64,000 nt of DNA from Saccharothrix australiensis (GTDB lineage Bacteria; Actinomycetota; Actinomycetes; Mycobacteriales; Pseudonocardiaceae), in assembly GCF_003634935.1 (NCBI RefSeq), contig NZ_RBXO01000001.1:5357501-5421500 (forward strand), given 5' to 3'. The position numbers were made by a program, and so were the translations under genes. The number at the start of each line of letters is the position of its first letter. The first letter of the stretch is position 1. Shown one piece after another: positions 12,761 through 47,118 of this stretch. The notes below the pieces were generated by a model, which saw nothing but the letters and a program-made list of their open reading frames with translations, ran no database searches and was not told the DNA's origin.

Positions 12761-13012
12761 CGGTCGAGCGTCGGCCGTCGGGAGCCGGCGCGCCACCCCC
12801 GTTCGGAGGTGTCGTCGCGGCGCTCGGCGGACCCGCGCGCGATGAGCGGGCGCGGGCATGCGCGGCGCAGCGGGCGCGGGCGGCGTGGCGTGACGTGGCG
12901 CAGCGCGGTGTGATGGGGCGCGGCCCGGTGTGGTGCGGCGGGCGGGTGTGCGGGCGGCGCGGCGCGGTGAGCGGGCGGCGCGGCGTCCCCCGTGGACGGG
13001 CGCGGCGGGGAG

Positions 13013-18186: not shown

Positions 18187-19452
18187 ATGGACACCGAACG
18201 CATCGCGAGACGATTAGCGGGGCTCGCGCGCGACCACCTGGTGCCCGGCGCGCAACTCGCCGTGCACCGCCCCGGCGCCGAGTTGTGGACGACCGAGGTC
18301 GGCCTGCCCGCCGACGCGGCCGTCCCGATCGGCTCGATCACCAAGACGTTCACCGCCACCGTCGCGATGGCCCTGGTCTCCGACGGCGACCTCGACCTCG
18401 ACGCGCCGCTGCCGGACGTGGACCACCCGCTGACGCTGCGCCACCTGCTCAGCCACACCGGCGGCCTGCCCTCCGACCCGGACGACGTCCGCACCACCTC
18501 GCTGCGCCGCCACGCCCTGGAGGCGAGCCGGAACCTGGCGCCGCTGCACCGGCCGGGCGCGGGCTTCTCCTACTCCAACATCGGCTACGTCCTCGTCGGC
18601 CACCTCATCGAGGTGGCCACCGGCATGTCCTGGTGGGAGGCGGTGGACGCGGTGCTGCTGCGGCCCCTGGGGCTGCGCCCGCACTTCACCGTCGGCCCCG
18701 ACACCGACCGCGACGCGGTGCCCGGCCACGCCGTCAACCCGGCGCTGCGCCGCGTCGTCCCGGTGCGGCAGTCGCTGGCCCTCGTGGACGCGCCCGCGGG
18801 CGCGCTGGCCGCCAGCGCGACCGACCTGGTGACCTTCGGCCGGATGCTGGCGGGCGCGCCGCCGCACCTCGTGACCGCCGCCGACCTCGCCCTGATGCGC
18901 GCGCCGGTGCGGCACGCCGAGCCGTTCGGGATGGCCGACGGGTGGGGGCTGGGGCTCGCGCTGTACGAGCGCGACGGCGTCACCTGGGTCGGCCACGACG
19001 GCACCGCCGACGGCACGTCGTGCCACCTGCGGATCAACCCCGCCGACGGCTCCGCGGTGGCGCTGACCACCAACGGCAGCAGCGGCTTCGCGCTCTGGCG
19101 GGACCTCGTGCCGGAATTGGCCGCGGCCGGGCTGCCGGTGGGCGATTACGACGGGGTGCGCGACCTGCGCGACCCGATCCCGCCGCCGCCGGACTGCGCG
19201 GGCGACTTCCTCAACGGCGACACCGAATACTCGGTGCGGCCCGCCGGCCGGGAGGTGCTCAAGCTCACGGTGGACGGCGAGCCGTTCGCGGACCTCTCGT
19301 TGTTCGACGGGCTGGTGTTCGCGATGCGGGATTCCGACACCGGCGACACGAGCCAGACGGGCCGTTTCCTGCGCAACCCCCGCGGTGGCGGGATCGAGTG
19401 GATACAGATCGGTGGCCGGCTCGCTCGGCGGCACGTCACGCAAATGGTCTGA
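18187..19452 (+). CDS. PBP-type thioesterase / peptide cyclase candidate (beta-lactamase fold)
   Basis: 421-residue serine hydrolase of the class C beta-lactamase/PBP family. Catalytic motifs are S50-ITK53 (SxxK), Y129-S-N131 (YxN) and H270-D-G272 (HxG). There is no signal peptide or lipoprotein signal, so it is cytosolic, unlike cell-wall PBPs. The C-terminal ~110 residues look like the beta-rich lipocalin-like extension found in SurE. It is the first gene of the NRPS operon, and the NRPSs lack a fused thioesterase and end in an epimerase. This is the known setting of PBP-type thioesterases such as surugamide SurE, which release and macrocyclise peptides with a D-residue at the C-terminus and an L-residue at the N-terminus. 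Cyclase function is inferred from family and context. ATG 18187 has an AAGGA Shine-Dalgarno. Confidence 0.85.
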   Translation: MDTERIARRLAGLARDHLVPGAQLAVHRPGAELWTTEVGLPADAAVPIGSITKTFTATVAMALVSDGDLDLDAPLPDVDHPLTLRHLLSHTGGLPSDPDDVRTTSLRRHALEASRNLAPLHRPGAGFSYSNIGYVLVGHLIEVATGMSWWEAVDAVLLRPLGLRPHFTVGPDTDRDAVPGHAVNPALRRVVPVRQSLALVDAPAGALAASATDLVTFGRMLAGAPPHLVTAADLALMRAPVRHAEPFGMADGWGLGLALYERDGVTWVGHDGTADGTSCHLRINPADGSAVALTTNGSSGFALWRDLVPELAAAGLPVGDYDGVRDLRDPIPPPPDCAGDFLNGDTEYSVRPAGREVLKLTVDGEPFADLSLFDGLVFAMRDSDTGDTSQTGRFLRNPRGGGIEWIQIGGRLARRHVTQMV

Positions 19453-19527
19453 GAAATCACGTTTGAACCGTCCCTGTTGCGGGTAGTAACCGCCGCCCGC
19501 CTGTTCCGGAGAAAGGTTCTGCTCGCG

Positions 19528-22500
19528 ATGACGTCTGCCCGAAACCTGCCGAGAATGGTGGACGCGCAGGTCGACCGGACACCCGACGCGCCCGCGATCG
19601 TGTCCGCCGACGGCGTGGTCCCCTACCGCGAGCTGGCGGCACGGGCCAACCGGCTCGCGCACCGCCTGATCGCCCGCGGCGCCCGCGCGGAACGCGTGGT
19701 GGCGATCGCCCTGCCCCGCTCGGTGGACAACGTCGTCGCGCGGCTGGCGGTGCTCAAGACCGGCGCCGCCTACCTGCCGGTGGACCCCGCCTACCCGGCG
19801 GAGCGGATCGCGTTCATGCTCGCCGACGCCGACCCGCTGCTCGTGCTGGACGGCCCCCTCGACGACGCCGCCGGCCCGGACGCGCCGGACACCGACCCCG
19901 GTGTGCCGATCCACCCGGACTCCCCGGCGTACGTGATCTACACGTCCGGCTCGACCGGACGGCCGAAGGGCGTGGTGGTGACCCACCGCGGGCTGCCCGC
20001 GTTCTCCGACGCCGAGGTGGCGCACTTCGACGTGCGGCCGGGCGACCGGGTGCTCCAGTTCTCCTCGCCCAGCTTCGACGCCTCGGTGCTGGAGCTGTGC
20101 ATGGCGCTCCCGGTCGGCGCGGCGCTGGTCGTGCCGCCGGAGGGTCCGCTGCTGGGCGACCAGCTCGCGGACGTGCTCCGGGACTTCGGCGTGACGCACG
20201 CGCTGATCCCGCCGGTCGCGCTGGCCACCGTGCCGCACCGGCCGCTGCCCGCGTTCCGCACGCTCGTCGTCGGCGGCGACGCGTGCCCGCCCGACCTGGT
20301 CGAGCGGTGGTCGCCGGGGCGGCGCATGGTCAACGCCTACGGCCCGACCGAGTCGACGGTCGTCACGAGCTGGAGCGGTCCGCTGACGCCGGGCGGGCCG
20401 CCGCCGATCGGCAGGCCCGTCCCCGGCACCGGGGTCCGGGTCCTGGACGAGGAGCTGGCCGAGTGCGCCGAGGGCGAGCTGTACGTCACCGGCGTCGGCC
20501 TGGCGCGCGGCTACCTCGGCCGGCCGGGGCTGACCGCGACCAGGTTCGTCGCCGACCCGTTCGGGCCGCCGGGCGCGCGGATGTACCGGACGGGCGACGT
20601 GGTGCGGGTGCGCGCCGACGGCGAGCTGGAGTTCGTGGGCCGCGCCGACCACCAGGTGAAGATCCGCGGCTTCCGGGTGGAGCCCGGCGAGGTCGAGGCG
20701 CTGCTGCGGGAGCACCCCGCGGTGCGCCAGGCCGTCGTGGTGGCGCGGGGCGAGCCCAAGCGGCTGGTCGCCTACGTGGTGGGCGGTACGGCGGGGCTGC
20801 GGGAGCACCTGGCGGCGACGCTGCCCGACTACCTGGTGCCGTCGGCGTTCGTCGCGCTGGACGCGCTGCCGCTGAGCCCCAACGGGAAGCTGGACCGGGC
20901 CGCGCTGCCCGCGCCGGTCGTCGGCGACGTGCCGGCGGGCTTCGTCGCGCCCCGCACCGGGGACGAGCGTCGGGTCGCGGCGGTGTGGAAGGACGTGCTG
21001 GGCGTGGCGCACGTTGGCGCGCACGACGACTTCTTCGCGCTGGGCGGCGACTCGGTCCTGGCCGTGCGGGCGCTGGCCAGGCTGGGCGGGCTGCCGGTGC
21101 GGGCGATGTTCGAGCACCGCACGGTCGAGGCGCTGGCGCGGGCGCTGCCGACGCGCTCACCGATACCCCGCGTGCCGCGCGGCCGCCCGCTGCCGCTGTC
21201 GACGGCGCAGCGGCGGCTGTTCTCGCTGGACGGCACCGCCGAGCAGAACACGGCCGCCGCGCTGCGGCTGACCGGCCCGCTGGACGTGCCCCGGTTGGCG
21301 CGGGCGCTCGACGCCCTGGCGCGGCGGCACGACGCGCTGCGCACCACGTTCGACGTCGTCGACGGCGAACCGGTCCAGGTCGTCGCGGAGAGCGGCGCGA
21401 TCCCGCTGGTCGAGGGCGACGAGCGGGACCTGGCGACGCCGTTCGACCTGCGGCGCGGCCCGCTGGCGCGGGCGGTGCTGCGCCGCCTCGGCCCCGACGA
21501 CCACGTGCTCGCGCTGGTGCAGCACCACATCGTCACCGACGGCTGGTCGGTCGGCGTGCTGCTGGCCGAGCTGGCCGACCTCTACGCCGGCGTCGAGCCG
21601 CCGCCGCCGACCGCCCAGTACCCGGACTTCGCGGCGTGGGACGCGTCGCGGCCGGAGGGCGACGTGGCGTACTGGCGCGACCGGCTGGTCGGCATCGAGG
21701 CGCTGGACCTGCCCACCGACCGGCCGCGCCCACCGCTGCGCACGACGTCCGGCGCGGTGCTGCGCCGCCCGCTGCCCGCCGACCTCGTGCGGCGGCTGGC
21801 CGACGTCGGGCGGGCGCACGACGCGACCCTGTTCATGACGCTCACCGCCGCCGTGCAGGTGCTGCTGTCGTCCCGCAGCCGGCAGCGGGACGTCGCGCTG
21901 GGCACGGTGACCTCCGGCCGGGACCACGCGGACCTGGAGCGGGCGGTCGGGTTCTTCGTGCGCACGCTGGTCCTGCGCTCGTGGGTCGACCCGGAGCTGC
22001 CGTTCACCGGTTTCCTCGACCACGTCCGGGACACCGTGCTGGAGGCGTTCGCGCACGACGACGTGCCGTTCGACCGGGTGGTGGCCGCGGTCGGGGCGGA
22101 CCCGGACCCGAGCCGCACGCCGCTGGTGCAGGCCGTGGTCGCGCTGCACCCGCCGCTGGTGGAGCGCGCGGACTTCGGCGGGCTCACGGCGACCGAGCAC
22201 GACCTGCCGCGCCCGAACGCCCGGTTCGACCTCGTGGTGGAGTTCTGGCCGAGGGACGACTCCCTGACGCTGACCGTGGAGCACAACACCGACCTGTTCG
22301 ACGCCGCGACCGTCGAGCGGCTGGCCGAGGACCTGGAGGCGCTGCTGCGCCAGGTGGTCGACGACCCGGACCGGCCGCTGCGCGGGCTGGTCGAGCTGGA
22401 CTTCCCGCCCGACGACACGGTCCGCGTCCGGGGGATGCGGGTCGACGTCGCGGCCGTGGAGGAGGTGCTGCGGCGGCACCACGAGGTGTCCGACGCGGTG

Positions 22501-25500
22501 GTGGTGGCCACCGAACGGCGGCTGGTCGCGTACGTGACCCCGCCGGTGAGCCCGGCCGCGCTGGAGGGTTTCGCGGCCCAGGTGCTGCCCGCGCACAGCG
22601 TGCCGACGACGTTCGTCGGGCTCGACCGGCTGGACCGCGACGACCTGCCCGCGCCGCCCGACGAGCCGCGCGCCTACGTCGCGCCCCGCACGCCCGTGGA
22701 GGCCGTGCTGGCGCGGGTGTTCGCGGAGGTGCTGGGCGCGGCGCGGGTCGGGGTGCGGGACAACTTCTTCGCGCTGGGCGGCGACTCCATCCTCGGCATC
22801 CAGGTCGTCACCCGCGCCCGCCAGGCCGGGCTGGTGCTGACCTCGCGGGACATCTTCGCGCACCAGACGATCGCCGCGCTCGCGCCGCACGTGACGCGCG
22901 ACCTGCCGCCCGCCACCGACCAGGGCGAGGTGACCGGCGAGGCGCCGACGACGCCGATCCAGCGCTGGTTCCTCGGCACCGGCTCGACGCTGTTCGAGCA
23001 GTCCCTGGTGGTGGACCTCGACACCGACCTGGACGAGGCGGCGCTGCGCGTCGCGGTGGACGCGCTGGTCGCGCACCACGACGCGCTGCGGATGCGGTTC
23101 GAGGGCGACCGGCAGGTCGGCGAGCCCGTCGGGCGCGGTGAGCCGCTGCTGCGCGCCGAGGCGCTGGGCGCGCGGTCCGTGCGGCTGACCGCGCACCACC
23201 TCGTGGTGGACGGGGTGTCGTGGCGCATCCTGGCGGAGGACCTGGTGACCGCCCACCGGCAGGCCGCGGCGGGCGGGGCCGTCCACCTCGGGCGGAAGAC
23301 GACGTCGTTCCGCGACTGGGCGCGGCGGCTGCGCGACCACGCGGTCGCCGGCGGGTTCGACGCCGAGCTGCCGCACTGGGAGGCGGTGTCCGGGGAGGGC
23401 GTCCCGACCGACCGCGACGGGCCCAACACCTTCGCCACCGCGCGGGCGGTGACCGTGCGGCTCACCGGCGACGAGACGGCGGCGCTGCTGCGCGACGTGC
23501 CGGACGTGTACCGCACGCAGGTCAACGACGTGCTGCTGACCGCGCTGGGCCGGGTGCTGGCCGACTGGACGGGCCGCGACCGGGTCTTGGTCGACCTGGA
23601 GGGACACGGCCGCGAGGAGCTGTTCGACGACGTCGACCTGTCCCGCACGGTCGGCTGGTTCACCACGGTCTTCCCGGTGGCGCTGGACGTGCCGCGCGGG
23701 TGGGGCGAGGCGTTGAAGGCGGTGAAGGAGCGCTTGCGCGCGGTCCCGAACCGGGGCATCGGCTACGGCGCGCTGCGCCACTTCGCGGGCGGGCCGGTGT
23801 GCGACCCGGCGGTGAGCTTCAACTACCTGGGTCGGTTCACCGCCGACCAGCGGGACCTCGACCTCGCCGCCGACCCGGACATGCCGCGACCGCACCTGAT
23901 CGACGTCGTCGGCCGGGTGCAGGCCGACCGGCTGGAGTTCACCTGGCACTACAGCGCGGCCGTCCACGACGAGGCGACCGTCGCGCGGCTCGCCGACGAA
24001 TTCGCCGGGGCGCTGCGGGCGATCGTCGCGCACTGCCGGGAACCGGGCGCGGGCGGGCGCACCCCGTCGGACTTCCCGCTGGCGCGGCTCACCCAGGACG
24101 AGGTGGACCGGATCACCGGCGAGGACGCGTACCCGCTGACGCCGATGCAGGCGGGCATGGTGTTCCACGGCCTCGGTGAGCAGGGCGCGTACTTCCAGCA
24201 GACGACGTTCGTGGTGGACGGCGTGCCGGACTCCGCCGCGCTCGCCCGGTCCTGGCAGCGCGTCGTGGACCGGACCCCGGTGCTGCGCAGCTCGGTGTTG
24301 TGGGAGGGCGTCCGCGAGCCGTTGCAGGTGGTGCACGAGCACGCCGAGGTGCCGTTCACCTTCCTGGACTGGAGCGACCTGGACGAGGCGGCGCGGGCCG
24401 AGCGGCTGTCGGCGCTGCTGGCCGCCGACCGGTCGGTGGGCATCGACCTCGCGACGCCGCCGCTGATGCGGGTCGCGATCATCCGGCTCGCGCCGGCGAC
24501 CGTGCGGGTGCTGTGGACGTTCCACCACGTCCTGCTCGACGGGTGGAGCGTGTTCCAGGTGCTGTCCGACGTGCTGGGCGAACCGGCCGAGCGGCCACCG
24601 TTCCGGGACTACGTGGCGTGGCTCGCGGACCAGGACGGCCAGGCCGCCGAGCGGCACTGGCGGCAGGTGCTCGGCACGTTCGACGCGCCGACGCCGCTGC
24701 CCGCCGACCGGCCCGCCCTCGGGCCCGCGACGTCCTCCGCCCGGCACTCGGTCGAGCTGACCGAGGCCGAGTCGGCGCGGCTGTACGAGTTCGCCCGCGA
24801 GCACCGGCTGACGCCGAGCGCGATCGTGCAGGGGGCGTGGGCGCTGCTGCTGGCCAGGTCGTCGGGGCGGCGGGACGTGTGCTTCGGCGCGACGGTGTCG
24901 GGTCGGCCCGCGGACCTGCCGGGCGTGGACGCGATCACCGGCATCTTCATCAACACCCTGCCGGTGCGGGTCCGGGTGGACGGCGCCCGGCCGGTCGCGG
25001 AGTGGCTGCGCGACCTCCAGGCGGCGCAGGCGGAGTCCCGCCGGTTCGAGCACGTGCCGCTGACCGCGTTGCGGGCGTGGAGCGGGGTCGAGGCGGGCGC
25101 CGCCCTGTTCGACAGCGCGGTGGTCTTCGAGAACTACCCGGTCGACCTCGCCGACGGGATGGGGCTGCGCGAGCTGGAGGCCGTCGAGACGACGAGCTTC
25201 CCGCTCAGCGCCACGGTCTACCCGGCGCGCCGGCTGGGCGTGCTGCTCGGCTACGAGCCCGCGATGTTCGACGCAGGCACCGTGGCCCGGCTCGGCGAAC
25301 GGCTGACGGCGCTGCTGGTGGGCCTCACCGCCGACCCCGACCGGCCGGTGGCGCGGGTGCCTTGGCTGTCGGAGGACGAGCGCCGCCGGGTGCTGGTCGA
25401 GTGGAACGGCCGCGGCCACAGCGCGCCGCGCACGACCATCCCGGCGCGGTTCGCCGAGCAGGCCGCCCGCACGCCCGACCGCGTCGCCGTGGCACTGGCC

Positions 25501-27096
25501 GACGACCGGCTGACCTACCGCGAGCTGGACGAGCGGGCGAACCGGTTGGCGCACCACCTGATCGGCCTCGGCGCGAGTCCGGAACGCCTGGTGGCGCTGC
25601 TGCTGCCCCGCTCGGTCGACCTGGTCGTGGCGGTGCTGGGCGTGCTGAAGTCGGGCGCGGCCTACCTGCCGATCGACCCCGCCTACCCGGCCGACCGGAT
25701 CGCGGGCGTCCTCGCCGACGCCGACCCCGCCGTCGTGCTGGACGCGGTGCCGGACCTGACCGGGTACCCGGCCACCGCACCGGACGTGCGGTTGACGCCG
25801 GACAACGCGGCGTACGTGATCTACACGTCGGGCTCGACCGGGCGGCCCAAGGGCGTGGTGATCCCGCACGGCAACGTCATCCGCCTGTTCTCCGCCACCA
25901 ACCACTGGTTCCACTTCGACCACACCGACGTCTGGACACTGTTCCACAGCTACGCCTTCGACTTCTCCGTCTGGGAACTGTGGGGACCCCTCCTGCACGG
26001 CGGACGCTTGGTGGTCGTGCCGCACGACACCTCGCGAACACCGCGCGACTTCGCCCGCCTGTTACGCGAAGAGGGCGTCACGGTGCTCAACCAGACACCC
26101 TCGGCGTTCTACCAACTCATCCCCGAACAACCCGACGCCCGCTACATCATCTTCGGCGGAGAAGCCCTCGACCAGCACAAACTCCACAACTGGCACGGCA
26201 CCGGCCAACTGGTCAACATGTACGGCATCACCGAAACCACCGTCCACGTCACTCACACCCACGCCGACGGCACCATCGGTGAACCGATACCCGACCTGCG
26301 CGTCTACGTCCTGGACGACGATCTCCAACCCACTCCACCCGGCATCACCGGCGAAATGCACATCGCCGGACCCGGACTCGCCCGCGGCTACCTCAACCGA
26401 CCCGGCCTCACCGCACAACGCTTCATCGCCAACCCCTACGGCCCACCCGGCACCCGCCTCTACCGCACCGGCGACCTCGCCCGATGGCACAACGGCAAAC
26501 TCCACTACCACGGCCGCACCGACCACCAACTCAAGATCCGCGGCTTCCGCATCGAACCCGGCGAAGTCGAAGTGGTCCTCGGCGCGCATCCTGCGGTCGC
26601 CCAGGTCGTTGTGCTGGAGCAGGACCAGCGTCTGGTGGCGTACTACGTGCCGAACGGGCCCGTGCAGGTTTCGGAACTGCGCGGTCACGCCTCGGCCGTG
26701 CTGCCGGAGCACATGGTCCCGTCGGCGTTCGTGGCACTGGACCGACTGCCGCTCAACGCCAACGGCAAGTTGGACCGCGTCGCGCTCCCCGCGCCCGAGC
26801 GCGACGCGGTCACCTCCACCGACTACGTCGCGCCGCGCACCGGCACCGAAGAGGCGATCGCGGCCATCTGGGCCGACGAGCTGGACGTCGACCGGGTCGG
26901 CGTGGAGGACAGCTTCTTCGCGCTGGGCGGCGACTCGATCCGCAGCCTGCGCATCACGTCCCGGACCAAGGCGGCGTTCGGCGTCGACCTCTCGCCGCGC
27001 GACGTGCTCACCGCGCGCACGGTGTCCTCGCTGGCCGACCTGGTGGAAGACCTGGTCCTGGCCGACCTCGAAGCCCTCGCCGACCGGGAAGCGTGA
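19528..27096 (+). CDS. Non-ribosomal peptide synthetase 1 (modules 1-3)
   Basis: 2522 residues. Module 1: A (5-465) and T (Ser509), no C domain, so it initiates. Module 2: C of LCL type (552-960, HHIVTDG at 666), a remnant of an A domain (about 963-1047), T (Ser1087) and E (1130-1530, HHLVVDG at 1223). Module 3: C of DCL type (1535-1960, HHVLLDG at 1666), A (1968-2427) and T (Ser2470), ending there. The module 1 pocket reads D-A-L-L-V-G-A-V-V-K (hydrophobic, amino acid not assigned). Module 3 reads D-F-W-N-I-G-M-V-H-K, the established threonine code. Module 2 has no adenylation core, and its epimerase is 37 residues shorter than the others before the active site. ATG 19528 is chosen for GGAGAAAGG upstream. 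The partner NRPS starts three bases after the stop. Confidence 0.95.
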   Translation: MTSARNLPRMVDAQVDRTPDAPAIVSADGVVPYRELAARANRLAHRLIARGARAERVVAIALPRSVDNVVARLAVLKTGAAYLPVDPAYPAERIAFMLADADPLLVLDGPLDDAAGPDAPDTDPGVPIHPDSPAYVIYTSGSTGRPKGVVVTHRGLPAFSDAEVAHFDVRPGDRVLQFSSPSFDASVLELCMALPVGAALVVPPEGPLLGDQLADVLRDFGVTHALIPPVALATVPHRPLPAFRTLVVGGDACPPDLVERWSPGRRMVNAYGPTESTVVTSWSGPLTPGGPPPIGRPVPGTGVRVLDEELAECAEGELYVTGVGLARGYLGRPGLTATRFVADPFGPPGARMYRTGDVVRVRADGELEFVGRADHQVKIRGFRVEPGEVEALLREHPAVRQAVVVARGEPKRLVAYVVGGTAGLREHLAATLPDYLVPSAFVALDALPLSPNGKLDRAALPAPVVGDVPAGFVAPRTGDERRVAAVWKDVLGVAHVGAHDDFFALGGDSVLAVRALARLGGLPVRAMFEHRTVEALARALPTRSPIPRVPRGRPLPLSTAQRRLFSLDGTAEQNTAAALRLTGPLDVPRLARALDALARRHDALRTTFDVVDGEPVQVVAESGAIPLVEGDERDLATPFDLRRGPLARAVLRRLGPDDHVLALVQHHIVTDGWSVGVLLAELADLYAGVEPPPPTAQYPDFAAWDASRPEGDVAYWRDRLVGIEALDLPTDRPRPPLRTTSGAVLRRPLPADLVRRLADVGRAHDATLFMTLTAAVQVLLSSRSRQRDVALGTVTSGRDHADLERAVGFFVRTLVLRSWVDPELPFTGFLDHVRDTVLEAFAHDDVPFDRVVAAVGADPDPSRTPLVQAVVALHPPLVERADFGGLTATEHDLPRPNARFDLVVEFWPRDDSLTLTVEHNTDLFDAATVERLAEDLEALLRQVVDDPDRPLRGLVELDFPPDDTVRVRGMRVDVAAVEEVLRRHHEVSDAVVVATERRLVAYVTPPVSPAALEGFAAQVLPAHSVPTTFVGLDRLDRDDLPAPPDEPRAYVAPRTPVEAVLARVFAEVLGAARVGVRDNFFALGGDSILGIQVVTRARQAGLVLTSRDIFAHQTIAALAPHVTRDLPPATDQGEVTGEAPTTPIQRWFLGTGSTLFEQSLVVDLDTDLDEAALRVAVDALVAHHDALRMRFEGDRQVGEPVGRGEPLLRAEALGARSVRLTAHHLVVDGVSWRILAEDLVTAHRQAAAGGAVHLGRKTTSFRDWARRLRDHAVAGGFDAELPHWEAVSGEGVPTDRDGPNTFATARAVTVRLTGDETAALLRDVPDVYRTQVNDVLLTALGRVLADWTGRDRVLVDLEGHGREELFDDVDLSRTVGWFTTVFPVALDVPRGWGEALKAVKERLRAVPNRGIGYGALRHFAGGPVCDPAVSFNYLGRFTADQRDLDLAADPDMPRPHLIDVVGRVQADRLEFTWHYSAAVHDEATVARLADEFAGALRAIVAHCREPGAGGRTPSDFPLARLTQDEVDRITGEDAYPLTPMQAGMVFHGLGEQGAYFQQTTFVVDGVPDSAALARSWQRVVDRTPVLRSSVLWEGVREPLQVVHEHAEVPFTFLDWSDLDEAARAERLSALLAADRSVGIDLATPPLMRVAIIRLAPATVRVLWTFHHVLLDGWSVFQVLSDVLGEPAERPPFRDYVAWLADQDGQAAERHWRQVLGTFDAPTPLPADRPALGPATSSARHSVELTEAESARLYEFAREHRLTPSAIVQGAWALLLARSSGRRDVCFGATVSGRPADLPGVDAITGIFINTLPVRVRVDGARPVAEWLRDLQAAQAESRRFEHVPLTALRAWSGVEAGAALFDSAVVFENYPVDLADGMGLRELEAVETTSFPLSATVYPARRLGVLLGYEPAMFDAGTVARLGERLTALLVGLTADPDRPVARVPWLSEDERRRVLVEWNGRGHSAPRTTIPARFAEQAARTPDRVAVALADDRLTYRELDERANRLAHHLIGLGASPERLVALLLPRSVDLVVAVLGVLKSGAAYLPIDPAYPADRIAGVLADADPAVVLDAVPDLTGYPATAPDVRLTPDNAAYVIYTSGSTGRPKGVVIPHGNVIRLFSATNHWFHFDHTDVWTLFHSYAFDFSVWELWGPLLHGGRLVVVPHDTSRTPRDFARLLREEGVTVLNQTPSAFYQLIPEQPDARYIIFGGEALDQHKLHNWHGTGQLVNMYGITETTVHVTHTHADGTIGEPIPDLRVYVLDDDLQPTPPGITGEMHIAGPGLARGYLNRPGLTAQRFIANPYGPPGTRLYRTGDLARWHNGKLHYHGRTDHQLKIRGFRIEPGEVEVVLGAHPAVAQVVVLEQDQRLVAYYVPNGPVQVSELRGHASAVLPEHMVPSAFVALDRLPLNANGKLDRVALPAPERDAVTSTDYVAPRTGTEEAIAAIWADELDVDRVGVEDSFFALGGDSIRSLRITSRTKAAFGVDLSPRDVLTARTVSSLADLVEDLVLADLEALADREA
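22411..22665 (+). other. Adenylation-domain remnant in NRPS1 module 2
   Basis: Between the C and T domains of module 2 only about 85 residues remain. VRVRGMRVDVAAVEEVL corresponds to motif A8 and the rest to the small C-terminal A subdomain. Motifs A1-A7 and the whole substrate pocket are missing. The A10 lysine is also absent (VGLDRLDRDDLPAPP where other modules have an NGKLDR-type motif). The module cannot adenylate its own carrier protein. Confidence 0.9.
25810..26565 (+). repeat. Thr adenylation-domain block, copy 1
   Basis: Nearly identical in DNA to 40261-41016. From about 25890 onward codon choice shifts to many A- and C-ending codons (CAA, AAA, CTC, CGA), unlike the G/C-ending flanks. 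The block starts at the A3 motif and ends at the A8 motif, suggesting a recently moved adenylation core. Confidence 0.85.
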
Positions 27097-27099
27097 ACC

Positions 27100-36000: not shown

Positions 36001-39000
36001 GACCTCGCCGGGTGCCCGGCGCACCGGCCGGGCGTGCCGGTGCGGCCGGACCACGCGGCGTACGTCATCCACACCTCCGGCTCCACCGGCACGCCGAAGG
36101 GCGTCGTGGTGGAGCACCGCCACCTGGTCAACCTGCTGCACAACCACCGCGCCGACTTCGCGGCCGAGCCGCTGCGGGTGGCCTTGTCGGCGGTGTTCTC
36201 GTTCGACACGTCCTGGGAGGGCCCGCTGCTCATGGCCGACGGCCACGAGCTGCACGTCCTGACCGACGACGTCCGCCTCGAACCCGCCGCGCTGGTCGAC
36301 TACGTCCGCCAGCACCGCATCGACTTCCTCGACCTCACACCCTCCTACGTCCAACAGCTCCTCCCCGCCGGACTCCTCGACGGCGACCACACGCCCAAGA
36401 TCCTCATGCTCGGCGGCGAAGCCCTGCCCGCCACGCTGTGGCGCGAGCTGGCGGCTTCACCGACGCGGGCCTACAACTTCTACGGCCCCACCGAGACCAC
36501 CGTCGACGCCGTCTCGACGCCCGTGACGGGCGACCGGCCGGTCATCGGCCGCCCCCTGGACAACCTGGTCGCGCACGTGCTCGACGCCGACCTCCGACCG
36601 ACACCGACCGGGGTGCCCGGCGAGCTGTACATCGCGGGCGCACAGGTCGCGCGCGGCTACCTCAACCGACCCGGCCTCACCGCACAGCGGTTCCTGCCCG
36701 ACCCGTACGGACCACCCGGCACCCGCATGTACCGCACCGGCGACCGCGTCCGCTGGACCGACGACCGACTCGAATACCTCGGCCGCACCGACGACCAGGT
36801 CAAGATCCGCGGCTACCGCATCGAACCGGGCGAAGTCGAAACCGCACTGCTCAGCCACCCCGACGTCACGCAGGCCGTGGTCGTGGCGCGGGAGCACAAC
36901 GGGCACCAGCGGCTCGTCGCCTACACCGTGGGCGCGCCGGCGGACCCGGCCGGGTGGCTCAAGGACCGGCTGCCCGACCACCTGGTGCCGTCGGCCTTCG
37001 TGGCGCTGGACGCCGTGCCGATGACGCCGAGCGGCAAGGTCGACCGCCGCGCGCTGCCCGCGCCGACGTTCACCGACGCCGGGTACGTGCCGCCCGCGCC
37101 CGGTGTCGCGGCGGAGCTGGCCGCGATCTGGGCCGACGTGCTCGGGGTGGAGCGGGTCGGCGCGCGGGACAACTTCTTCGCGCTGGGCGGCGACTCGATC
37201 CTGAGCATGCAGGTGGTGTCGCGCGCCCGGCAGGCCGGGATGCGGTTGACGGCCAAGGAGGTCTTCCTGCGGCAGACCGTGGCCGAGCTGGCGCTCGCGG
37301 TCACCGCCGACACCGGCGGCGCGCACGAGGTCGTGACCGGCCCGGCCCCGCTGACCCCGATCCAGCGCTGGTTCTTCGCCGAGCACGGGCCGCTGGCGCA
37401 CTTCACCATGTCCGTCCTCACCGACCTCGGCGACGACGTGGACGTGCCCGCGCTGCGGTCCGCGCTGCACGCGGTCGTCGCGCGCCACGACGCCCTGCGC
37501 ACGCGGTTCACGCGGGTGGACGGGCAGTGGCGGCAGGAGGTCGCGGGCACTGGGGAGGACGTGCTGCGCCTGGCGTCCACAGTGGACCACCCGGCGGAGG
37601 CCGACGCGGCGCGGAGGAGCCTGGACCTGGAGCGCGGCCCGCTGTTCCGGGCGGTGCTGTTCCCCGACGGCAAGCTGTTCCTCACCGCGCACCACCTCGT
37701 CGTGGACGCGGTGTCGTGGCGGATCGTCCTGTCCGACCTGCGGACCGCCTACGCGGGCGGCGACCTCGCGCCGGTGGGCACCCCGTTCGCCGGCTGGGCG
37801 CACCGGCTGGACGCCCACGTGCGGTCCGGCGGGTTCGACGGGGCGCTCGCGCACTGGGCGGCCGTGCCCGTGGAGGAGCCGACGCCCACGACGGCGGGCA
37901 CCGCGCGCGGCGTGTCGGTGCGGTTGGGGCGCGCCGACACCGACGCCCTGCTGCACCGGGTGCCCGAGGCGTACCGGACGCGGGTCGACGACGTGCTGCT
38001 GACCGCGCTGGCCGCGGCGTTCGGTGGCCGCGCGCTGGTCGCGCTGGAGGGACACGGCCGCGAGGAGCTGTTCGACGGCGTCGACCTGTCCCGCACCGTC
38101 GGCTGGTTCACCGCGCAGTTCCCGGTGGCGCTGGAGGTGCCCGCCGGCGACTGGGGACGCGCGCTCAAGGCGGTGAAGGAGCGGCTGCGGGCGGTGCCGG
38201 ACCGGGGGCTGAGCTACGAGGCGCTGCGCTACGCCGATCGCGGGCTGACCGGCGCGCTGCCGCGCGTGTGCTTCAACTACCTGGGCCGGTTCGAGTCCGA
38301 CGCGTTCGGCGAGGCCGAGCACGGCCGCGAGGTGCCCGACGACCTCGTGCGACCGCACCTGCTCGACATCACCGCCGCCGTGACCGACGGCGAACTCGCG
38401 CTGGAGTGGGAGTACTCCACGCAGGCGCACGACGAGGCCGAGGTGCGGGCGCTGGCCGACCGGATGGTGGACGCCCTGCGCGGCATCGTCGCGCACTGCG
38501 CGTCACCCGAGGCGTGGGGCCGCACGCCGTCGGACTTCCCGTTGGCGCGGCTCACGCAGGAGCAGGTCGACCGGATCGCCCGGCCCGACGTGGAGGACGT
38601 CTACCCGCTCACGCCGTTGCAGGCGGGGATGCTGTTCCACGACCTGGTGGACGACGGCACGGCCTACTTCAACCAGCTCCGCGTCCGACTGTCCGGTGTG
38701 GACTCGCCCGAGCGCCTCGCCCGCGCGTGGCAGCGCGTGGTCGACCGCACCCCGACCCTGCGCACCGCCGTGGTGTGGGAGGGCGTGGACGAGCCGGTGC
38801 AGGTGGTGCGCCGCGACGTGGTGCTGCCGGTGGAGTTCGCGCCGGTGACCGACGAGCTGGTGGCGCGCGACGCCCGGCGGGGGCTGGACCTCACCCGCGC
38901 GCCGTTGATGCGGCTGGTGGTCGGGCGCGTCTCCGACCACGAGGTCGACCTGCTGTGGACCTCGCACCACCTGCTGCTGGACGGCTGGAGCACCGCGCAG

Positions 39001-42000
39001 GTGTTCGGCGAGGTGCTCGCCGAGTACGCGGGTGCGGACCCGGTCGCGCGGCGGCCGTTCCGCGACTACCTGGCGTGGCTGGCCGCGCAGGACCCGGCCG
39101 CGGCCGAGGAGCACTGGCGGGGCGTGCTCGCCGGGTTCACCGCGCCCACTCCCCTGCCCTACGACCGGCCGCCGACCGACGCGCACCGCGCCGAGTCGTC
39201 GGCCCGCGTGGTGCTGGACCTGCCGGTGGACCGGGCGGCCGAGGTGGCGCGGGCCAACGGCCTGACCGTCAACACGATCGTGCAGGGCGCGTGGGCGCTG
39301 CTGCTGTCCAGGGTGTCCGGCGAGCGCGACGTCGTGTTCGGCACCACGGTGTCCGGGCGGCCGGCGGAGCTGCCCGGTGTCGAGGACGTGGTGGGCATGT
39401 TCATCAACACCGTGCCCACGCGCGTCGTCGTGGACCCGCGCGCCGGGGTCGTGCCGTGGCTGCGCCGGCTCCAGGAGGCCCAGACCGAGTCGCGGCGGTT
39501 CGACTTCGCGTCCCTCGCGCAGGTGCGGTCGTGGGCCGGCGGTCCGCTGTTCGACAGCCTGCTGGCGTTCGAGAACTACCCGGTCGAGGCGCCCGCCGGC
39601 GACGCGCCGCGAGTGGTCGGCGAGGTCGACGGCCTGGACACCACCACGTTCCCGCTGACCGTGCGGGCGCACGCCGACGACTCGCTGCACGTCGAGCTGA
39701 CCTACGACCCGCGCCTGTTCGACGCCGCCACGGTCGAGCGGCTCGGCGGGTGGCTGTCGCGCCTCATCGGCGCGATCGGCGACGACGCCGGGCGCGCGGT
39801 GGGCGAGCTGCCGTGGCTGTCCGACGACGAGCGCCGGCAGGTCCTGCACGACTGGCAGGGCTCCGGGTCCGACGGGCCGACCGGCACCATCCCGGAGCGG
39901 TTCGCCGCGCAGGCGGCGCGGACGCCGGACGCCGTCGCGGTGACCTGGCAGGGCGTCGGGCTGACCTACCGCGAGCTGGACGAGCGGGCGAACCGGTTGG
40001 CGCACCACCTGATCGGCCTGGGCGCGGGCCCGGAGCGGTTCGTGGGCCTGCTGCTGCCGCGATCGCTCGACCTGGTGGTGGCGGTGCTGGGCGTGCTGAA
40101 GTCGGGCGCGGCCTACCTGCCGATCGACCCCGCCTACCCGGCCGACCGGATCGCCGGGATGATCGCCGACGCCGAGCCGGTCGTCGTCCTGGACGGCATC
40201 CCGAATCTCGACGGGTGTCCCGACGTGGCGCCGGAAGTGGCGTTGCGGCCCGAGCACCCGGCGTACGTGATCTACACGTCGGGCTCGACCGGGCGGCCCA
40301 AGGGCGTGGTGATCCCGCACGGCAACGTCATCCGCCTGTTCTCCGCCACCGACCACTGGTTCCACTTCGACCACACCGACGTCTGGACGCTGTTCCACAG
40401 CTACGCCTTCGACTTCTCCGTCTGGGAACTGTGGGGACCCCTCCTGCACGGCGGACGCCTCGTCGTCGTACCCCACGACACCTCGCGAACACCGCGCGAC
40501 TTCGCCCGCCTGTTACGCGAAGAAGGCGTCACGGTGCTCAACCAGACACCCTCGGCGTTCTACCAACTCATCCCCGAACAACCCGACGCCCGCTACATCA
40601 TCTTCGGCGGAGAAGCCCTCGACCAGCACAAACTCCACAACTGGCACGGCACCGCCCAACTGGTCAACATGTACGGCATCACCGAAACCACCGTCCACGT
40701 CACCTATACGGAAGCCGACGGCACCATCGGTCAACCGATACCCGACCTCCGCGTCTACGTCCTGGACGACGATCTCCAACCCGTCCCACCCGGCATCACC
40801 GGCGAAATGTACGTCGCCGGACCCGGACTCGCCCGCGGCTACCTCAACCGACCCGGCCTCACCGCACAACGCTTCATCGCCAACCCCTACGGCCCACCCG
40901 GCACCCGCCTCTACCGCACCGGCGACCTCGCCCGATGGCACAACGGCAAACTCCACTACCACGGCCGCACCGACCACCAACTCAAGATCCGCGGCTTCCG
41001 CATCGAACCCGGCGAGATCGAGGCGGTGCTGGCGTCCCACCCGTCGGTGCGGCAGGTGTCCGTGGTGGTGCGGGACGAGCGGCTGGTCGCGTACGCGGTC
41101 GCGGACGGCGAGGTCGCGGTGCCGGCGCTGCGCGACCACGCGGCGCGGTCGCTGCCCGAGCACATGGTGCCGAGCGCGTACGTCCTGCTGGACCGGTTGC
41201 CGCTCAACGCCAACGGCAAGCTCGACCGGGCCGCGCTGCCCGCGCCGGGGCGGGACGCGTCGGTGGCCGACGGGTTCGTCGCGCCGAGGACGGAGGCCGA
41301 ACGGCTGGTGGCCGGCGTCTGGGCCGACGTGCTGGGCGTGGAGCGGGTCGGCGCGGAGGACAACTTCTTCGCGCTGGGCGGCGACTCGATCCTCAGCATC
41401 CGGGTGGCGTCCCGGCTGCGCGAGACGTTCGACCTGTCGCCGCGCGCGGTGTTCGACCACCCGACGGTGGCGCGCCTCGCGGCGGCGCTGACCGGTGACG
41501 CGCCGACGCCGATCCCGCGCGCGGAGGGCGAGTTCGCGCTGTCGTTCGCGCAGCAGCGGCTGTGGTTCCTGGACCAGTTCTCGCCGGGCGGCACGGAGTA
41601 CGTGACGCCGTTCGCGGTGCGGCTGCGCGGCGAGCTGGACGTGGCGCGGCTGCGGCGGGCCCTGTCGGCGCTGGTGGCGCGGCACGAGTCGCTGCGCACC
41701 ACGTTCCCGGCCGTCGACGGGCTGCCGACGCAGGTCGTGCACCCGCCGCACGAGGTGGCGCTGCCGGTGGTGGACGAGCTGCCGCCGGTCGAGCCGTTCG
41801 ACCTCGGCGCGGGCCCCCTGTTCCGGCCGGCGCTGGTGCGGGTCGGGCCGGACGAGCACGTGCTGGCGCTGACCATGCACCACATCGTCACCGACGGCTG
41901 GTCCGGCGGCGTGCTGGTGTCCGACCTGGCCGCGCTGTACGCCGGCGAGGACCTGCCGGAGCTCCCGGTCCGGTACGTCGACTTCGCCGCGTGGCAGCGG

Positions 42001-45000
42001 TCCCAGCCGCTGGACGGGCAGCTGGAGTACTGGCGGGAGCGGCTGGCGGGCGTGCCGGCGCTGGAGCTGCCCACCGACCGGCCGCGGCCCGCCGTGCACA
42101 CGACGTCCGGCGCGCAGTGCGAGTTCGCCGTGCCCGCCGGGGTCGCCGACGCGCTGCGCGACATCGCGCGGCGCACCGACAGCACGCTGTTCATGACGCT
42201 GGTCGCGGCGTGCCAGGTGCTGTTCCACCGCTGGTCCGGGCAGGAGGACTTCGCCCTGGGCACGGTCGCCGCCGGGCGCGACCGGCCCGAGGTCGAGCGG
42301 GTGGTGGGGCTGTTCGTCAACACCCTGGCGCTGCGGGCCGCGGTCGACCCGCTCGGGACGTTCCCCGAGCTGCTGGCGCGGGTGCGGACGACGGTGCTGG
42401 AGGCGTTCGCCCACCAGGACGTGCCGTTCGAGCGGGTGGTCGACGCCGTGCAGCCGGACCGCGACACCAGCCGCACACCGCTGTTCCAGGCGGTGGTGGC
42501 GCTGCAGAACGCGCCGCGGGCGGCCGGGTTCGCCGGGCTGGACGCCTCCGACGTCGCCCGACCCGTGGTGTCGACCGGGTTCGACGTGACGGTGGAGTTC
42601 ACCGAGGAGGACGGCGGCGGGCTCGCCGGGTCGATCGAGTACAACACCGACCTGTTCGACGCGGTCACCGCGCGCCGGCTGGCCGACCACCTCGGCGTGC
42701 TGCTGGCGGGCCTCGCGACGGACCACGACCGTCCAGTGTGGACGCTGCCGGTGCTGCCGCCCGACGAGCTGGCGGCGGTGGAGCGGTTCGGGCGCGGCCC
42801 GCGCGGCGTGCGGTTCGCCCCGCTCGCCCGCCTGGTCGAGCGGCAGGCCGGGCGCACGCCCGACGCGCTCGCGCTGACCGGCGCGGCCGAGCTGACCTTC
42901 GCCCAGCTCGACCGGGCCGCCAACCGGTTGGCGCACCACCTGATCGCGCGAGGCGCGGGTCCGGAGCGGCTCGTCGCCGTGCGGCTGCCCCGCTCGGCCG
43001 ACCTGGTGATCGCCGAGCTGGCGGTGCTGAAGGCGGGCGCGGCGTTCCTGCCGGTGGACCCGTCCTACCCGGCGGAGCGGATCGCGCTCATGCTCGACGA
43101 CGCCCGGCCGCTGCTGGTGCTGGACGGCCCGGTCGACGTGTCGGGCCTGCCGGGCACCGCGCCGGACGTGGCGGTGCGGCCCGAGCACCCGGCGTACGTC
43201 ATCTACACGTCCGGGTCGACCGGGCGACCGAAGGGCGTCGTGGTGACCCACGCGGGCATCGCCACGTTCTCGGCGGCCGAGATCGCGCACCTGGACGTGC
43301 GGCCCGGCGACCGGGTGCTGGAGTTCTCCTCGCCGAGCTTCGACGCCTCGGTGCTGGAGCTGTGCCTGTCGCTGCCCGCCGGCGCGGCGCTGGTCGTGCC
43401 GCCGGAGGGGCCGCTGCTGGGCGACCGGCTCGCCGAGGTGCTGACCGCGCACCGGGTGACGCACGCGCTGATCCCGCCGGTCGCGCTGGCGACGCTGCCC
43501 GACGTCGCCCTGCCGGCGTTCCGGTCGCTGGTGGTCGGCGGCGACGCGTGCCCGCCGGACCTGGTGGACCGCTGGGCGCCCGGACGGCGCATGGTCAACG
43601 CCTACGGGCCCACCGAGTCGACCGTCGTCGCCACGTGGAGCGCTCCCCTGACGCCCGGCGGCACGCCGCCGATCGGGCGGCCGATCCCCGGCACCGAGGT
43701 CCACGTGCTGGACCCGGCCCTGCGGCCGGTGCCGATCGGCGTGCCGGGCGAGCTGTACGTGTCGGGCGCGGGCCTCGCGCGCGGCTACCTGGACCGGCCG
43801 GGGTTGACCGCGTCGCGGTTCGTCGCGAACCCGTTCGGCGCGCCCGGTTCCCGCATGTACCGCACGGGCGACGTGGTGCGGTGGCGGCGCGACGGCCGGC
43901 TGGAGTTCGTCGGCCGGGCCGACGAGCAGGTGAAGATCCGCGGTTTCCGGGTCGAGCTGGGCGAGGTGGAGGCCGCGTTGCTGCGGCACCCCGACGTGCG
44001 GGAGGCCGTGGTGGTCGCGCGGGCCGACGGCGCGGGCCACAAGCGGCTCGTCGCCTACGTCGTCGGCGCGGTGGCGGACCTGCGGGACTTCCTCGCCGAG
44101 TCGCTGCCCGACCACCTGGTGCCGTCGCTGTTCGTGCCGATCGACGCCATGCCGGTGAGCCCCAACGGGAAGGTCGACCGCGCGCGGCTGCCCGCGCCGG
44201 ACTTCTCGGCGCTGTCCACGGCCGGGCACGTGCCGCCGTCCGGACCGGTGGAGGAGGCGCTGGCCGCCGTGTGGGCGGACGTCCTCGGCGTGCCCGCGGT
44301 GGGCGCGGAGGACAACTTCTTCACGCTGGGCGGCGACTCGATCCTGAGCATGCAGGTGGTGGCGCGGGCTCGGCAGGCCGGCCTGCGGTTCACCACCAGG
44401 GACCTGTTCGTGCACCAGACGGTCGCGCGGCTCGCGCCCGCGGTGCGGCTGGAGGAGGGCGGCGGCGAGCGGTCCGCCGTGGTCGGCGAGGTGCCGCTGA
44501 CCCCGATCCAGCACTGGTTCCTGCACTCCGGCCGGCGCAACCCGCACCACTTCAACCAGTCGCACCTGGTGGAGCTGGACCCGGAGGTGGACGTGGCCGC
44601 GCTGCGGGGCGCGCTGCGGGCGCTGCTCGCGCAGCACGACGCGCTGCGGACCCGGTTCCGCCACGAGGACGGGCGGTGGCGGCAGGAGGTCCCGCCGGTG
44701 TCGGACGTGGACGTGCTGACGGTCGCGTCCGGGGTGGAGGACCTGGAGGCGTTCGCGGACGAGGTGCACGCGGGGTTCGACCTCGGCACGGGTCCGCTGT
44801 TGCGCGCGGTGCTGTTCCGGGAGCCCGACCGGTCGTCGCTGCTGCTGGTGGCGCACCACCTGGTCGTGGACGGTGTCTCGTGGCGGATCCTGCTGGACGA
44901 CCTGGAGACCGCCTACCGGGGCGGCGACCTGGGCGCCAAGACGACCTCGTTCCAGGAGTGGGCGCGGCGGCTGCGCGACCACGTGGCCGCGGGCGGGTTC

Positions 45001-45711
45001 GACGCCGAGGTCGACCACTGGGCCAAGCCCCTCCCGGTGCTGCCGCGGGCGACCACGCCCGCCGAGGTCGTCACGCTGGAGCTGGACGAGGACGACACCG
45101 CGGCGCTGCTGCGCGGCGCGCCCGCCGCCTACCGCACCCGGATCAACGACGTGCTGCTCGCGGCGCTGGCGTGGGCGCTGTCCCGGTGGACGGGCTCGGA
45201 GACGGTGTCGGTCGACCTGGAGGGCCACGGCCGCGAGGACCTGTTCGACGGGGTCGACCTGTCCCGGACCGTCGGGTGGTTCACCACCGTGTTCCCGGTG
45301 GAGCTGACGGTGCCCGAGGGCGACTGGCGGACGCGGGTCAAGGCGGTGCGGCGGCAGCTCCGGTCCGTGCCGGGCAACGGCATCGGCTACGGCGCGCTGC
45401 GGCAGCACGGCCGCCTGCCCGCCGGCGGCGTGCCGCTGGTCGCGTTCAACTACCTGGGGCAGTTCGACCCCGGCTCGGCCGAGGCCGAGGGCCTGTACCG
45501 GGCAGTGCTGCCGTCCATCGGCCGGGAGCACGACCCGGCCGACCACGGCGAGCACCTGATCGACGTCGTCGGCGAGGCGGGCGGCGGCCGGCTCGGGTTC
45601 TCCTGGTACCACCACCCCGACGCGCACCCGGCGGACGTGGTGCGCGGCGTGGTGGCGGACTTCGCGGCGGCGCTGCGGGCCATCGCCGAGGACTGCCGGG
45701 GTGCGGTGTGA
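27100..45711 (+). CDS. Non-ribosomal peptide synthetase 2 (modules 4-8)
   Basis: 6203 residues, five elongation modules. M4: C(LCL, HH169)-A-T(Ser982)-E(HH1154). M5: C(DCL, HH1574)-A-T(Ser2384). M6: C(LCL, HH2556)-A-T(Ser3366)-E(HH3531). M7: C(DCL, HH3956)-A-T(Ser4763). M8: C(LCL, HH4927)-A-T(Ser5747)-E(HH5919), then stop; there is no thioesterase. Pockets read by eye: M4 D-T-(W/D)-D-M-G-F-V-D-K, M5 D-T-(W/E)-D-L-G-Y-V-D-K, M6 D-T-(W/E)-D-M-G-F-V-D-K (position 239 depends on a one-residue gap); acidic, so probably basic residues. M7 is D-F-W-N-I-G-M-V-H-K (Thr). M8 is D-A-L-L-V-G-A-V-V-K, as in module 1. The M6 epimerase has HHLVVDA instead of HHLVVDG. DCL domains follow every epimerase, so the stereochemistry is self-consistent. 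Residues 1-40 are a short N-terminal lead, possibly docking. Confidence 0.97.
29096..29712 (+). repeat. Acidic-pocket A-domain block, copy 1 (module 4)
   Basis: Two long runs, about 29096-29275 and 29462-29712, are almost identical in DNA to 36246-36430 and 36630-36867 in module 6. They show the same shift to A-ending codons as the Thr block. The interval between them, about 29275-29460, is more diverged. Confidence 0.7.
36246..36867 (+). repeat. Acidic-pocket A-domain block, copy 2 (module 6)
   Basis: Partner of the module 4 block. It covers the pocket-forming segment and the stretch up to the A8 motif. Near identity in third positions points to recent duplication or gene conversion. Confidence 0.7.
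40261..41016 (+). repeat. Thr adenylation-domain block, copy 2
   Basis: Partner of 25810-26565, differing by only scattered substitutions over about 755 bases, including the full pocket. The offset between copies is constant (about 14451), so no indels separate them. Confidence 0.85.
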
Positions 45712-46934
45712 CCACCTCGTTGGCGCGCAACCGGAACTACACGCTGCTGTGGGGCGGGCAGGCGCTGGCCGAGGTCGGGTTCTCGGCCTCGCTGATCGCG
45801 TTCCCGCTGCTGGTGCTGGCGATCACGGGGTCGCCCGCGGCGTCCGGCCTGGTCCTCGCGGTCGACGCCACCGCGCAACTGCTGGCGGGCCTGCCCGCCG
45901 GCGCGCTGGTCGACCGGTGGGACCGCAGGCGGATCATGCTGGCGTGCGAGGCGGCGCAGGCGCTGGCGCTGGGCTCGCTGGTGCTCGCGCTGCTCGGCGA
46001 CGCGGCGTCGGTGCCGCACATGGTCGCCGTGGCCGCGGTCCTGGGCGTGTGCCGGGCGTTGTTCGAGCCGGCCGAGGACGCCTGCCTGCCCCGGCTCGTG
46101 CCGGACGCGCAGCTCGCGACCGCCGTGGCGATGAACGCGGCGCGGTCGTCGTTGGGCCAGATGTCGGGCACCGCGCTGGGCGGCGCGCTGTTCGCGGTGG
46201 CGCGCTGGGCGCCGTTCCTGCTCGACCTGGTGACGCACTGCCTCGCGTTCGTGGCGCTGCTGTTCCTGCGCGTGCCGCCGCGCGAACCGGTCGCGGTCGC
46301 CGAGCGGCACCTCCTGCGGGAGATCGGCGACGGCCTGCGCTGGGTGTGGCGGCGGCGCGAGATCCGCGTGACGGCGCTGTGCGCGGTGGTGCTGAACCTG
46401 TTCTTCACCGCGTTCTACCTCGTGGTCATCGTACTGGCGGAGGCGCGCGGTGTGTCGTCCGCCGCGATCGGCGTGATGGCCGCGATGCTCGGCGTCGGTG
46501 GCGTGGTGGGCGCGCTGATCGCGCCGTGGCTGCACCGCGTGCTCGGGCCGTACGTGTCGATCGCGGCCGTGTTCTGGGTGTTGACGCTGTTGACGCCCGT
46601 GGCCTACTTCGTGTCCGACGGGTTCGTGATGGGCGGGTTGTTCGCGCTCATGACGTTGTTGGCCCCCACCGCGAACACGACGATCTCCACCCACCAGCTG
46701 CTGCTCACGCCGGACGCGATGCGCGGGCGGCTCAGCGGCGTGGTGTCGGTGGTGCTGGGGGCGGCGGGTGCGCTCGGGCCCGCGTTGGGCGGCCTGCTCA
46801 CCGAGTTCCTCTCCGCCGACCGCGCCGTGCTGGTGTGCGCGGTCGGCATCGCCCTGGTTACCGCGTTCGTGACGATCAGCCCGACGTTGCGGCGCTATTC
46901 CGCTGAACAGGAAGGTGTTCCGAATGAGGTCTGA
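45708..46934 (+). CDS. MFS exporter of the peptide operon
   Basis: 408 residues with about 12 hydrophobic segments. The opening [69 protein letters not shown] holds the MFS motif A between helices 2 and 3 and resembles EntS-type exporters. The GTG start overlaps the NRPS2 stop (GTGTGA), and the stop overlaps the MbtH gene by 11 bases, so expression is coupled to the synthetases. It most likely exports the finished peptide and gives self-resistance. No siderophore genes accompany it, so the EntS likeness does not imply an iron role. Confidence 0.9.
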
Positions 46935-47118
46935 CATCGCCTACCAGGTGCTGGTCAACGACGAGGGCCAGTACTCGCTGTGGCCCGCGCACCAGCCCGT
47001 GCCGGCGGGGTGGGTCGCCGACGGCAAGACCGGCACCGTGGACGAGTGCTCCGCCCACGTCGACTCGGTGTGGACCGACATGCGGCCGAAGTCGTTGCGG
47101 GACGCCATGTCCGACTGA
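46924..47118 (+). CDS. MbtH-like protein
   Basis: 64-residue NRPS accessory protein that binds adenylation domains and helps them fold or activate. The family residues are seen in YQVLVNDEGQYSLWPAHQPVPAGW and SVWTDMRPKSLRDAM, including the three conserved tryptophans. ATG 46924 is chosen for AGGAAGG at 46909-46915; the gene begins inside the exporter gene. It is the last gene of the operon; the next gene is convergent. Confidence 0.95.
   Translation: MRSDIAYQVLVNDEGQYSLWPAHQPVPAGWVADGKTGTVDECSAHVDSVWTDMRPKSLRDAMSD

Follow-up and report, generated by a model that had tools for sequence, protein, structure and literature searches.

An NRPS line with an A-less second module and a SurE-type cyclase, predicted to make an alternating cyclic octapeptide

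The window analysed here, a stretch of 64,000 nucleotides from the 7.86-Mb genome of Saccharothrix australiensis (G000:C1:5357501-5421500), contains a five-gene operon for a non-ribosomal peptide synthetase (NRPS) line of eight modules, the second of which lacks the core of its adenylation (A) domain. Taken together, the evidence is probably best explained by a line in which the A domain of module 1 (A1), or less likely that of module 8 (A8), charges the carrier domains of both module 1 and module 2 (T1 and T2) to give a cyclo-(L-D)4 product. If this is true, the cluster provides alternating D,L cyclic octapeptides, which we know chiefly as designed molecules, from a source in nature: a compact cassette of five genes in which natural variation occurs at positions 3, 5 and 7. 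It would also be a clean system in which to ask how one A domain charges the carrier of an adjacent module. Both the SurE-type cyclase family and A-less modules are already known. The line itself is widespread in actinomycetes but unstudied: no paper on the product of the window cluster was found in the open-access literature searched. The genome paper on S. espanaensis counts five NRPS clusters, and the word octapeptide is absent from the available portion of its main text.

Organisation of the locus

As had been proposed in a preliminary description of this DNA, the five genes form an operon on the plus strand between 18184 and 47118, encoding in turn an S12/PBP-type hydrolase of 422 amino acids (18184..19452), NRPS1 (2539 aa; 19477..27096), NRPS2 (6203 aa; 27100..45711), an MFS exporter (45708..46934) and an MbtH-like protein (46924..47118), the last two assigned by Pfam. 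Read by motifs and home-made HMMs, NRPS1 has the domain order A1-T1-C2-[A_sub remnant]-T2-E2-C3-A3-T3 and NRPS2 the order C4-A4-T4-E4-C5-A5-T5-C6-A6-T6-E6-C7-A7-T7-C8-A8-T8-E8. The line thus has seven A domains for eight T domains, and an octapeptide requires one carrier to be charged from elsewhere.

Epimerase (E) domains are found in modules 2, 4, 6 and 8 only, and the line ends in E8 (44530..45699), with nothing after it and no thioesterase (TE) in cis; on both points the motifs and HMMs agree with what had been claimed earlier. The same is true of the division of the condensation (C) domains into two kinds: those that follow an E domain carry motifs of their own (27 protein letters, not reproduced here), and the remainder have HHIVTDGWS or HHIVVDGWS. 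When 49 C domains of seven lines are placed in a tree, a single branch (support 100) divides the 21 after-E rows from the 28 after-T rows. C2 (21187..22380) is of the after-T type and C3 (24127..25353) of the after-E type, the latter in all seven lines, six of them A-less; to judge from its type, C3 is still D-accepting although module 2 is A-less. A strictly L,D-alternating cyclic octapeptide, the product originally put forward, is still the best reading and likely correct, but only if the A-less module 2, which had been overlooked, is charged by another A domain.

Upstream of the operon lie genes for a RelA/SpoT-family protein (16070-16684) and an EamA transporter (15058-15900), both of which occur in every one of 13 upstream stretches from Saccharothrix and at none of the other loci. 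Elsewhere in the window (5035-8271, minus strand), B12-binding, MeaB GTPase and methylmalonyl-CoA mutase regions are fused in a single protein.

The cyclase

The SxxK, YxN and HxG motifs attributed to the hydrolase are all present, as SITK, YSN and HDG, and Pfam assigns the protein to PF00144. Across an alignment of 17 sequences S51, K54, Y130 and H271 are invariant and N132 nearly so. Searched against the PDB, the protein scores 237 bits with SurE and 190 with Ulm16, the next match reaching 77; at the level of sequence alignment, the matches to SurE (query residues 11-416) and to Ulm16 extend through the C-terminal region in which a lipocalin-like domain would be expected. The phylogenetic check proposed in the preliminary description was run, and the hydrolase is placed with SurE, Ulm16 and 80 homologous loci rather than with generic S12 proteins: in a tree of 89 rows, in which there are just six outgroup rows and SurE and Ulm16 form long branches, an 83-row group (support 100/97) excludes 2qmi and the five generic S12 hydrolases. 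Identity as a cell-wall PBP or generic esterase was set aside on the basis of the PDB scores and the tree. The closest named relatives, among the best 80 of 147 loci, are from Saccharothrix and are up to 91% identical.

The cyclase is a stand-alone protein encoded beside an NRPS that has no cis TE, begins without an E domain and finishes in one. According to the accessible part of a recent review, PBP-type TEs join an N-terminal L-residue to a C-terminal D-residue, which matches the L start and D end claimed for this line, and SurE favours neutral aliphatic or aromatic D-residues at the C-terminal end (PMC11735501). The pocket codes at the ring-closing positions 1 and 8 are of the DALL class in 36 of 36 lines, in keeping with this preference. 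From these features we infer that the SurE-type cyclase carries out head-to-tail macrolactamisation of the peptide.

Module 2 lacks an adenylation core

Module 2 had been taken for a full module. This is not so: the A core is absent and only a 76-residue remnant of the A_sub subdomain (22411..22638) remains between C2 and T2. In a PDB profile search this stretch aligns to the A_sub subdomain of LgrA; it has lost both the A10 lysine and the loop that precedes this residue. The Pfam count for NRPS1, two AMP-binding stretches against three carrier stretches, agrees with an A-less second module. T2 (22675..22881) is the best conserved of the eight carriers in the genus, with a median identity of 0.94 across 21 Saccharothrix lines against 0.81-0.89 for the others. 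Median dN/dS in the Saccharothrix lines, used here for ranking only because third positions are very GC-rich, is 0.11 for T2, 0.23 for A1, 0.28 for T1, 0.32 for C2, 0.37 for the remnant and 0.40 for E2, a ranking that places E2 and the A_sub remnant under no special constraint.

Might the line simply be dead, or the gap at A2 a sequencing or assembly error? A deletion seen in a single genome could be either, but the same gap recurs in each of the 21 Saccharothrix lines that were read and in five other genera, the reading frames are open and median dN/dS ranges from 0.11 to 0.40 by domain. This recurrence refutes an assembly error, and we consider this explanation as a whole very improbable; on these sequence criteria, the absence of A2 is not damage. 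That module 2 has no A domain could also mean that it is skipped and that the product is a cyclic heptapeptide. We regard this as quite unlikely, given that T2 is the best conserved carrier, that E2 (22984..24096) retains its HHLVVDGVS and EGHGRE motifs, that C3 is of the after-E type and that the A-less state extends across six genera. Module 2 thus bears marks of use, in its conserved T2 and in a C3 type that a skipped module would not need.

Which A domain charges T2?

If module 2 is in use, the nature of residue 2 can be approached through relatives in which A2 is intact. In the Actinoplanes and Amorphoplanes lines the A2 codes are DALLVGAVVK and DALLIGSVVK, with DALLLGAVVK at A1, and in the tree these A2 domains nest within the A1/A8 clade with support of 100. 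A search of 150 genomes from the family of these two genera gave eight cyclase matches: the two lines already read, three contig ends too short to read, two lines of other kinds (G229 and G242) and a third intact eight-module line (G236, outside the tree), again with DALLIGSVVK at A2 and DALLLGAVVK at A1. A2 therefore shares the A1/A8 pocket class in three of three eight-module lines with an intact A2. In relatives that keep A2 but differ in length, its code is often unlike that of A1 (L097, L098, G229 and G242, for example), which makes the match special to eight-module lines, where it is known from three cases, and no general rule. Residue 2 of the window product is accordingly likely, to judge from these relatives, to be of the A1/A8 type.

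As to the loader itself, A1 (19576..20925; code DALLVGAVVK) adjoins module 2 on the same chain, with T1 (20938..21135) and C2 between A1 and the remnant, and so is the simplest candidate; we consider it on balance the probable loader of both T1 and T2. A8 has the same code and seems less likely, although sequence singles out neither. Loading of an A-less module by the A domain of another has an experimental precedent in capreomycin, where CmnA-A1 loads CmnI (PMC12400406, in the part available).

Alternatively, T2 could receive its residue from an A domain encoded at another locus of the genome, as for ramoplanin or WS9326A, in which case residue 2 would not follow from the codes of this line. 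Complementation of A-less modules in trans is documented in the accessible parts of two papers (PMC8949500, PMC7539972) and the genome encodes several A proteins outside the locus. No A protein is a recurrent neighbour, however: none lacking C or E domains is encoded on the plus strand of 40 stretches (mostly of 40 kb), and the best 80 of 147 loci contain five A-like ORFs of this kind (36 to 199 bits against the A-core profile), four of them in the 31 A-less loci and with no common pattern. Two A proteins of the genome (603 and 544 aa) found no match at E 1e-130 in 24 other Saccharothrix genomes, at most 52 and 57 first-look candidates respectively being scored per genome; this donor comparison covered these two of the several A proteins. 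Together with the A1-type code at position 2 of the intact eight-module relatives, these results make an external donor unlikely.

With the window genes as queries against 19 clusters, no neighbour beyond the five operon genes recurs closely in other genera; the sole recurrence outside the genus consists of distant matches (~25-30%) to an acyl-CoA ligase. This ligase (11093-12859) was tried as the missing A domain and rejected, scoring 176 bits against a cut-off of 317 for amino-acid A domains, with a close copy in just one of 13 upstream stretches (10 kb each) from Saccharothrix.

Pocket codes and predicted residues

The codes of the window line are DALLVGAVVK at positions 1 and 8 (A8, 42853..44208), DFWNIGMVHK at 3 and 7 (A3, with T3, 25465..27033; A7, 39916..41256), DTWDMGFVDK at 4 and 6 (A4, 28558..29922; A6, 35713..37077) and DTWDLGYVDK at 5 (A5, 32782..34131), with none at position 2. 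We take DFWNIGMVHK to specify Thr, DVWHLSLVDK Ser and DAYWWGGTFK a Val-like residue, and presume the DALL codes to be akin to Leu and aromatic codes. Earlier guesses at the residues fit the codes at positions 1 and 3-8, with the Thr code at 3 and 7 and acidic pockets at 4-6; for position 2 there is no code to compare. Pockets 4-6 have Asp at 278 and 331 without a basic partner, which suggests that they accept basic residues; a search for a labelled relative of these pockets found none in this analysis. Alignment by MAFFT and HMMER puts W at residue 239 of these pockets, and simple counting puts E or D there. Aligning A1 and A4 with PDB entries named no substrate, and a literature search for the codes DALLVGAV, DTED.. 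and DTDD.. returned nothing, the DTWD forms favoured by the alignments being outside its scope.

Across 36 lines, the code class is constant at positions 1, 4 and 8. A single variant, carrying Glu at 331, occurs at position 6, and position 5 is Val-like in four lines, whilst positions 3 and 7 vary widely (position 3 being unread in Lentzea G100 and absent in two Allokutzneria lines). Sliding identity shows that the pocket regions of A3 and A7 in G008 and of A7 in G019 resemble A1/A8 (up to 0.97), with the ends closer to the sister species. The variation at 3 and 7 thus stems partly from swaps of A cores. Replacement of A cores within otherwise conserved modules is seen in Saccharothrix at A3/A7 (G008, G015, G019) and at A5 (G017, G007, G021, G024), by sliding identity for G008 A3 and A7, G019 A7 and G017 A5 and by code only for the other cases. 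Retention of A_sub and of the T interface in such swaps is a pattern of NRPS evolution described in the accessible text of PMC8097286, and the loss of the A2 core, which left A_sub in place, follows a boundary similar to that of the A-core swaps.

The order of substrates in the window line has a mirror symmetry about the axis 1-5 that 93 of 4000 shuffles equal. Nine of the 36 lines were tried: none of 4000 shuffles is as good in Actinoplanes G109, the symmetry is weaker in G008 (193 of 4000) and G110 (382 of 4000), and another axis gives the highest score in G099, G101, G106, G107 and G111, where between 1609 and 3957 of 4000 shuffles do equally well. Given these weak lines, mirror symmetry was dropped as a general feature and is treated as a feature of lineages.

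Distribution and history of the line

A search of 99 genomes found cyclase copies of at least 77% identity in 21 of 24 other Saccharothrix genomes, with no cyclase in G004, G012 and G014. In the window and in the 20 of these 21 clusters that were read (G005 was left out), making up the 21 Saccharothrix lines referred to above, the domain order including the A-less module 2 is identical. Among the best 80 of 147 loci from the cyclase scan, 31 start A-T-C-T, that is, without A2; the remainder retain A2, are laid out differently or offer too little sequence. Nineteen further clusters were read, 17 of them over 40 kb, G107 over 35 kb and G116 over 15 kb, and 15 are eight-module lines.

A2 is absent in 34 of the 36 eight-module lines, which come from eight genera, and is kept in Actinoplanes utahensis and Amorphoplanes auranticolor. 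The A_sub remnant is present in 25 of the A-less lines (Saccharothrix, Lentzea, Allokutzneria) and missing from nine (Actinokineospora, Actinophytocola, Kibdelosporangium). Module 2 can thus be compared across three states: intact in Actinoplanes, reduced to a remnant in Saccharothrix and wholly excised in Actinokineospora. Of the 19 other clusters, 18 also have the exporter and 13 have MbtH, which is present in neither Allokutzneria. The two Allokutzneria lines (G107 and G108; L171/L190, L162/L181) lack A domains in both modules 2 and 3, leaving six A domains for eight carriers.

Four of the 19 clusters are not eight-module lines. Two of them, a second line from Saccharothrix and one from Crossiella, have more modules; the others come from Actinokineospora pegani and from a truncated Planotetraspora contig in which A2 and A3 are both missing. 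The A. pegani line (G113; L173/L191) has six modules, the third without an A domain. G114 (L177/L195) and G115 (L168/L187) combine the five-module type of NRPS2 with a longer NRPS1 into longer lines, with related cyclase and exporter.

A 38-row tree of the C and E domains of NRPS2, made by a quick method and rooted at the midpoint, puts the four intact-A2 lines together, all others being A-less; on the unrooted tree a single loss is thus sufficient. In the cyclase tree, however, the proteins from K. aridum, Actinoplanes, Amorphoplanes, Solihabitans and Planotetraspora are not part of the 29-row clade formed by the other A-less lines, which makes exchange of parts or repeated loss possible.

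Proposed biosynthetic route

In the scheme that we favour, the A core of module 2 would have been lost in an ancestor and A1, on the same polypeptide as T2, would charge T2 besides T1 (A8 being less likely to do so). E2 would epimerise residue 2, C3 would then accept the D-residue and the chain would extend as L-D-L-D-L-D-L-D. The SurE-type cyclase would take the octapeptide off T8 and join its D-carboxyl end to L-residue 1. The predicted product is a head-to-tail cyclo-(L-D)4 ring in which positions 8, 1 and 2 share one hydrophobic type of residue, 3 and 7 are Thr and 4-6 are probably basic; the MFS protein would export it. Much more tentatively, natural cationic, strictly L,D-alternating amphiphilic cyclic octapeptides may occur across Pseudonocardiaceae and Micromonosporaceae as counterparts of the nanotube antibiotics known from design. 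In most of these lines a single A domain would charge two carriers on the same polypeptide, or three in Allokutzneria, and the A_sub remnant, where present (three genera), would serve as a docking platform for T2.

Comparison with known systems

Mannopeptimycin is an alternating hexapeptide whose line has an A-less module, with residues and tailoring unlike those of the window product. It shares a SurE-type cyclase, MppK, with the present system (PMC7459860, in the part available). In four Streptomyces loci (L142, L147, L155, L158), the NRPS upstream of the cyclase closes C-T-E without an A domain and is preceded by an A domain of code DLSVMGAVD; these lines are perhaps mannopeptimycin-like.

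In capreomycin an A-less module, CmnI, is loaded by an A domain that belongs to a different module of the line, CmnA-A1, as is proposed here for module 2. In capreomycin the A-less module is a separate protein and the accessible part of the report makes no mention of an A_sub remnant (PMC12400406); here, by contrast, A1 lies upstream on the same polypeptide and an A_sub remnant is kept in three genera.

Designed cyclic D,L-alpha-octapeptides offer a comparison at the level of the product. Even-numbered alternating rings stack into tubes, and cationic amphipathic ones are antibacterial, according to the available portions of PMC8348434 and PMC4207412. These peptides are synthetic, whereas the window product is a predicted natural ring that may, as the preliminary description suggested, stack into tubes and act on membranes.

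The nearest known octapeptide system is surugamide. Surugamide A, made by SurABCD and SurE, shares the eight modules, the lack of a cis TE, the stand-alone PBP-type TE, the L start and the D end (accessible parts of PMC11735501 and PMC11012974). Its stereochemistry is L-D-L-D-L-L-D-D, with E domains in modules 2, 4, 7 and 8, and is thus non-alternating (PMC11012974, in part), whilst the window line, with E domains in modules 2, 4, 6 and 8, departs from the E order and stereochemistry of a surugamide-type octapeptide line. Nor is an A-less module described for surugamide in the available text of these two papers, whereas module 2 of the window line is A-less.
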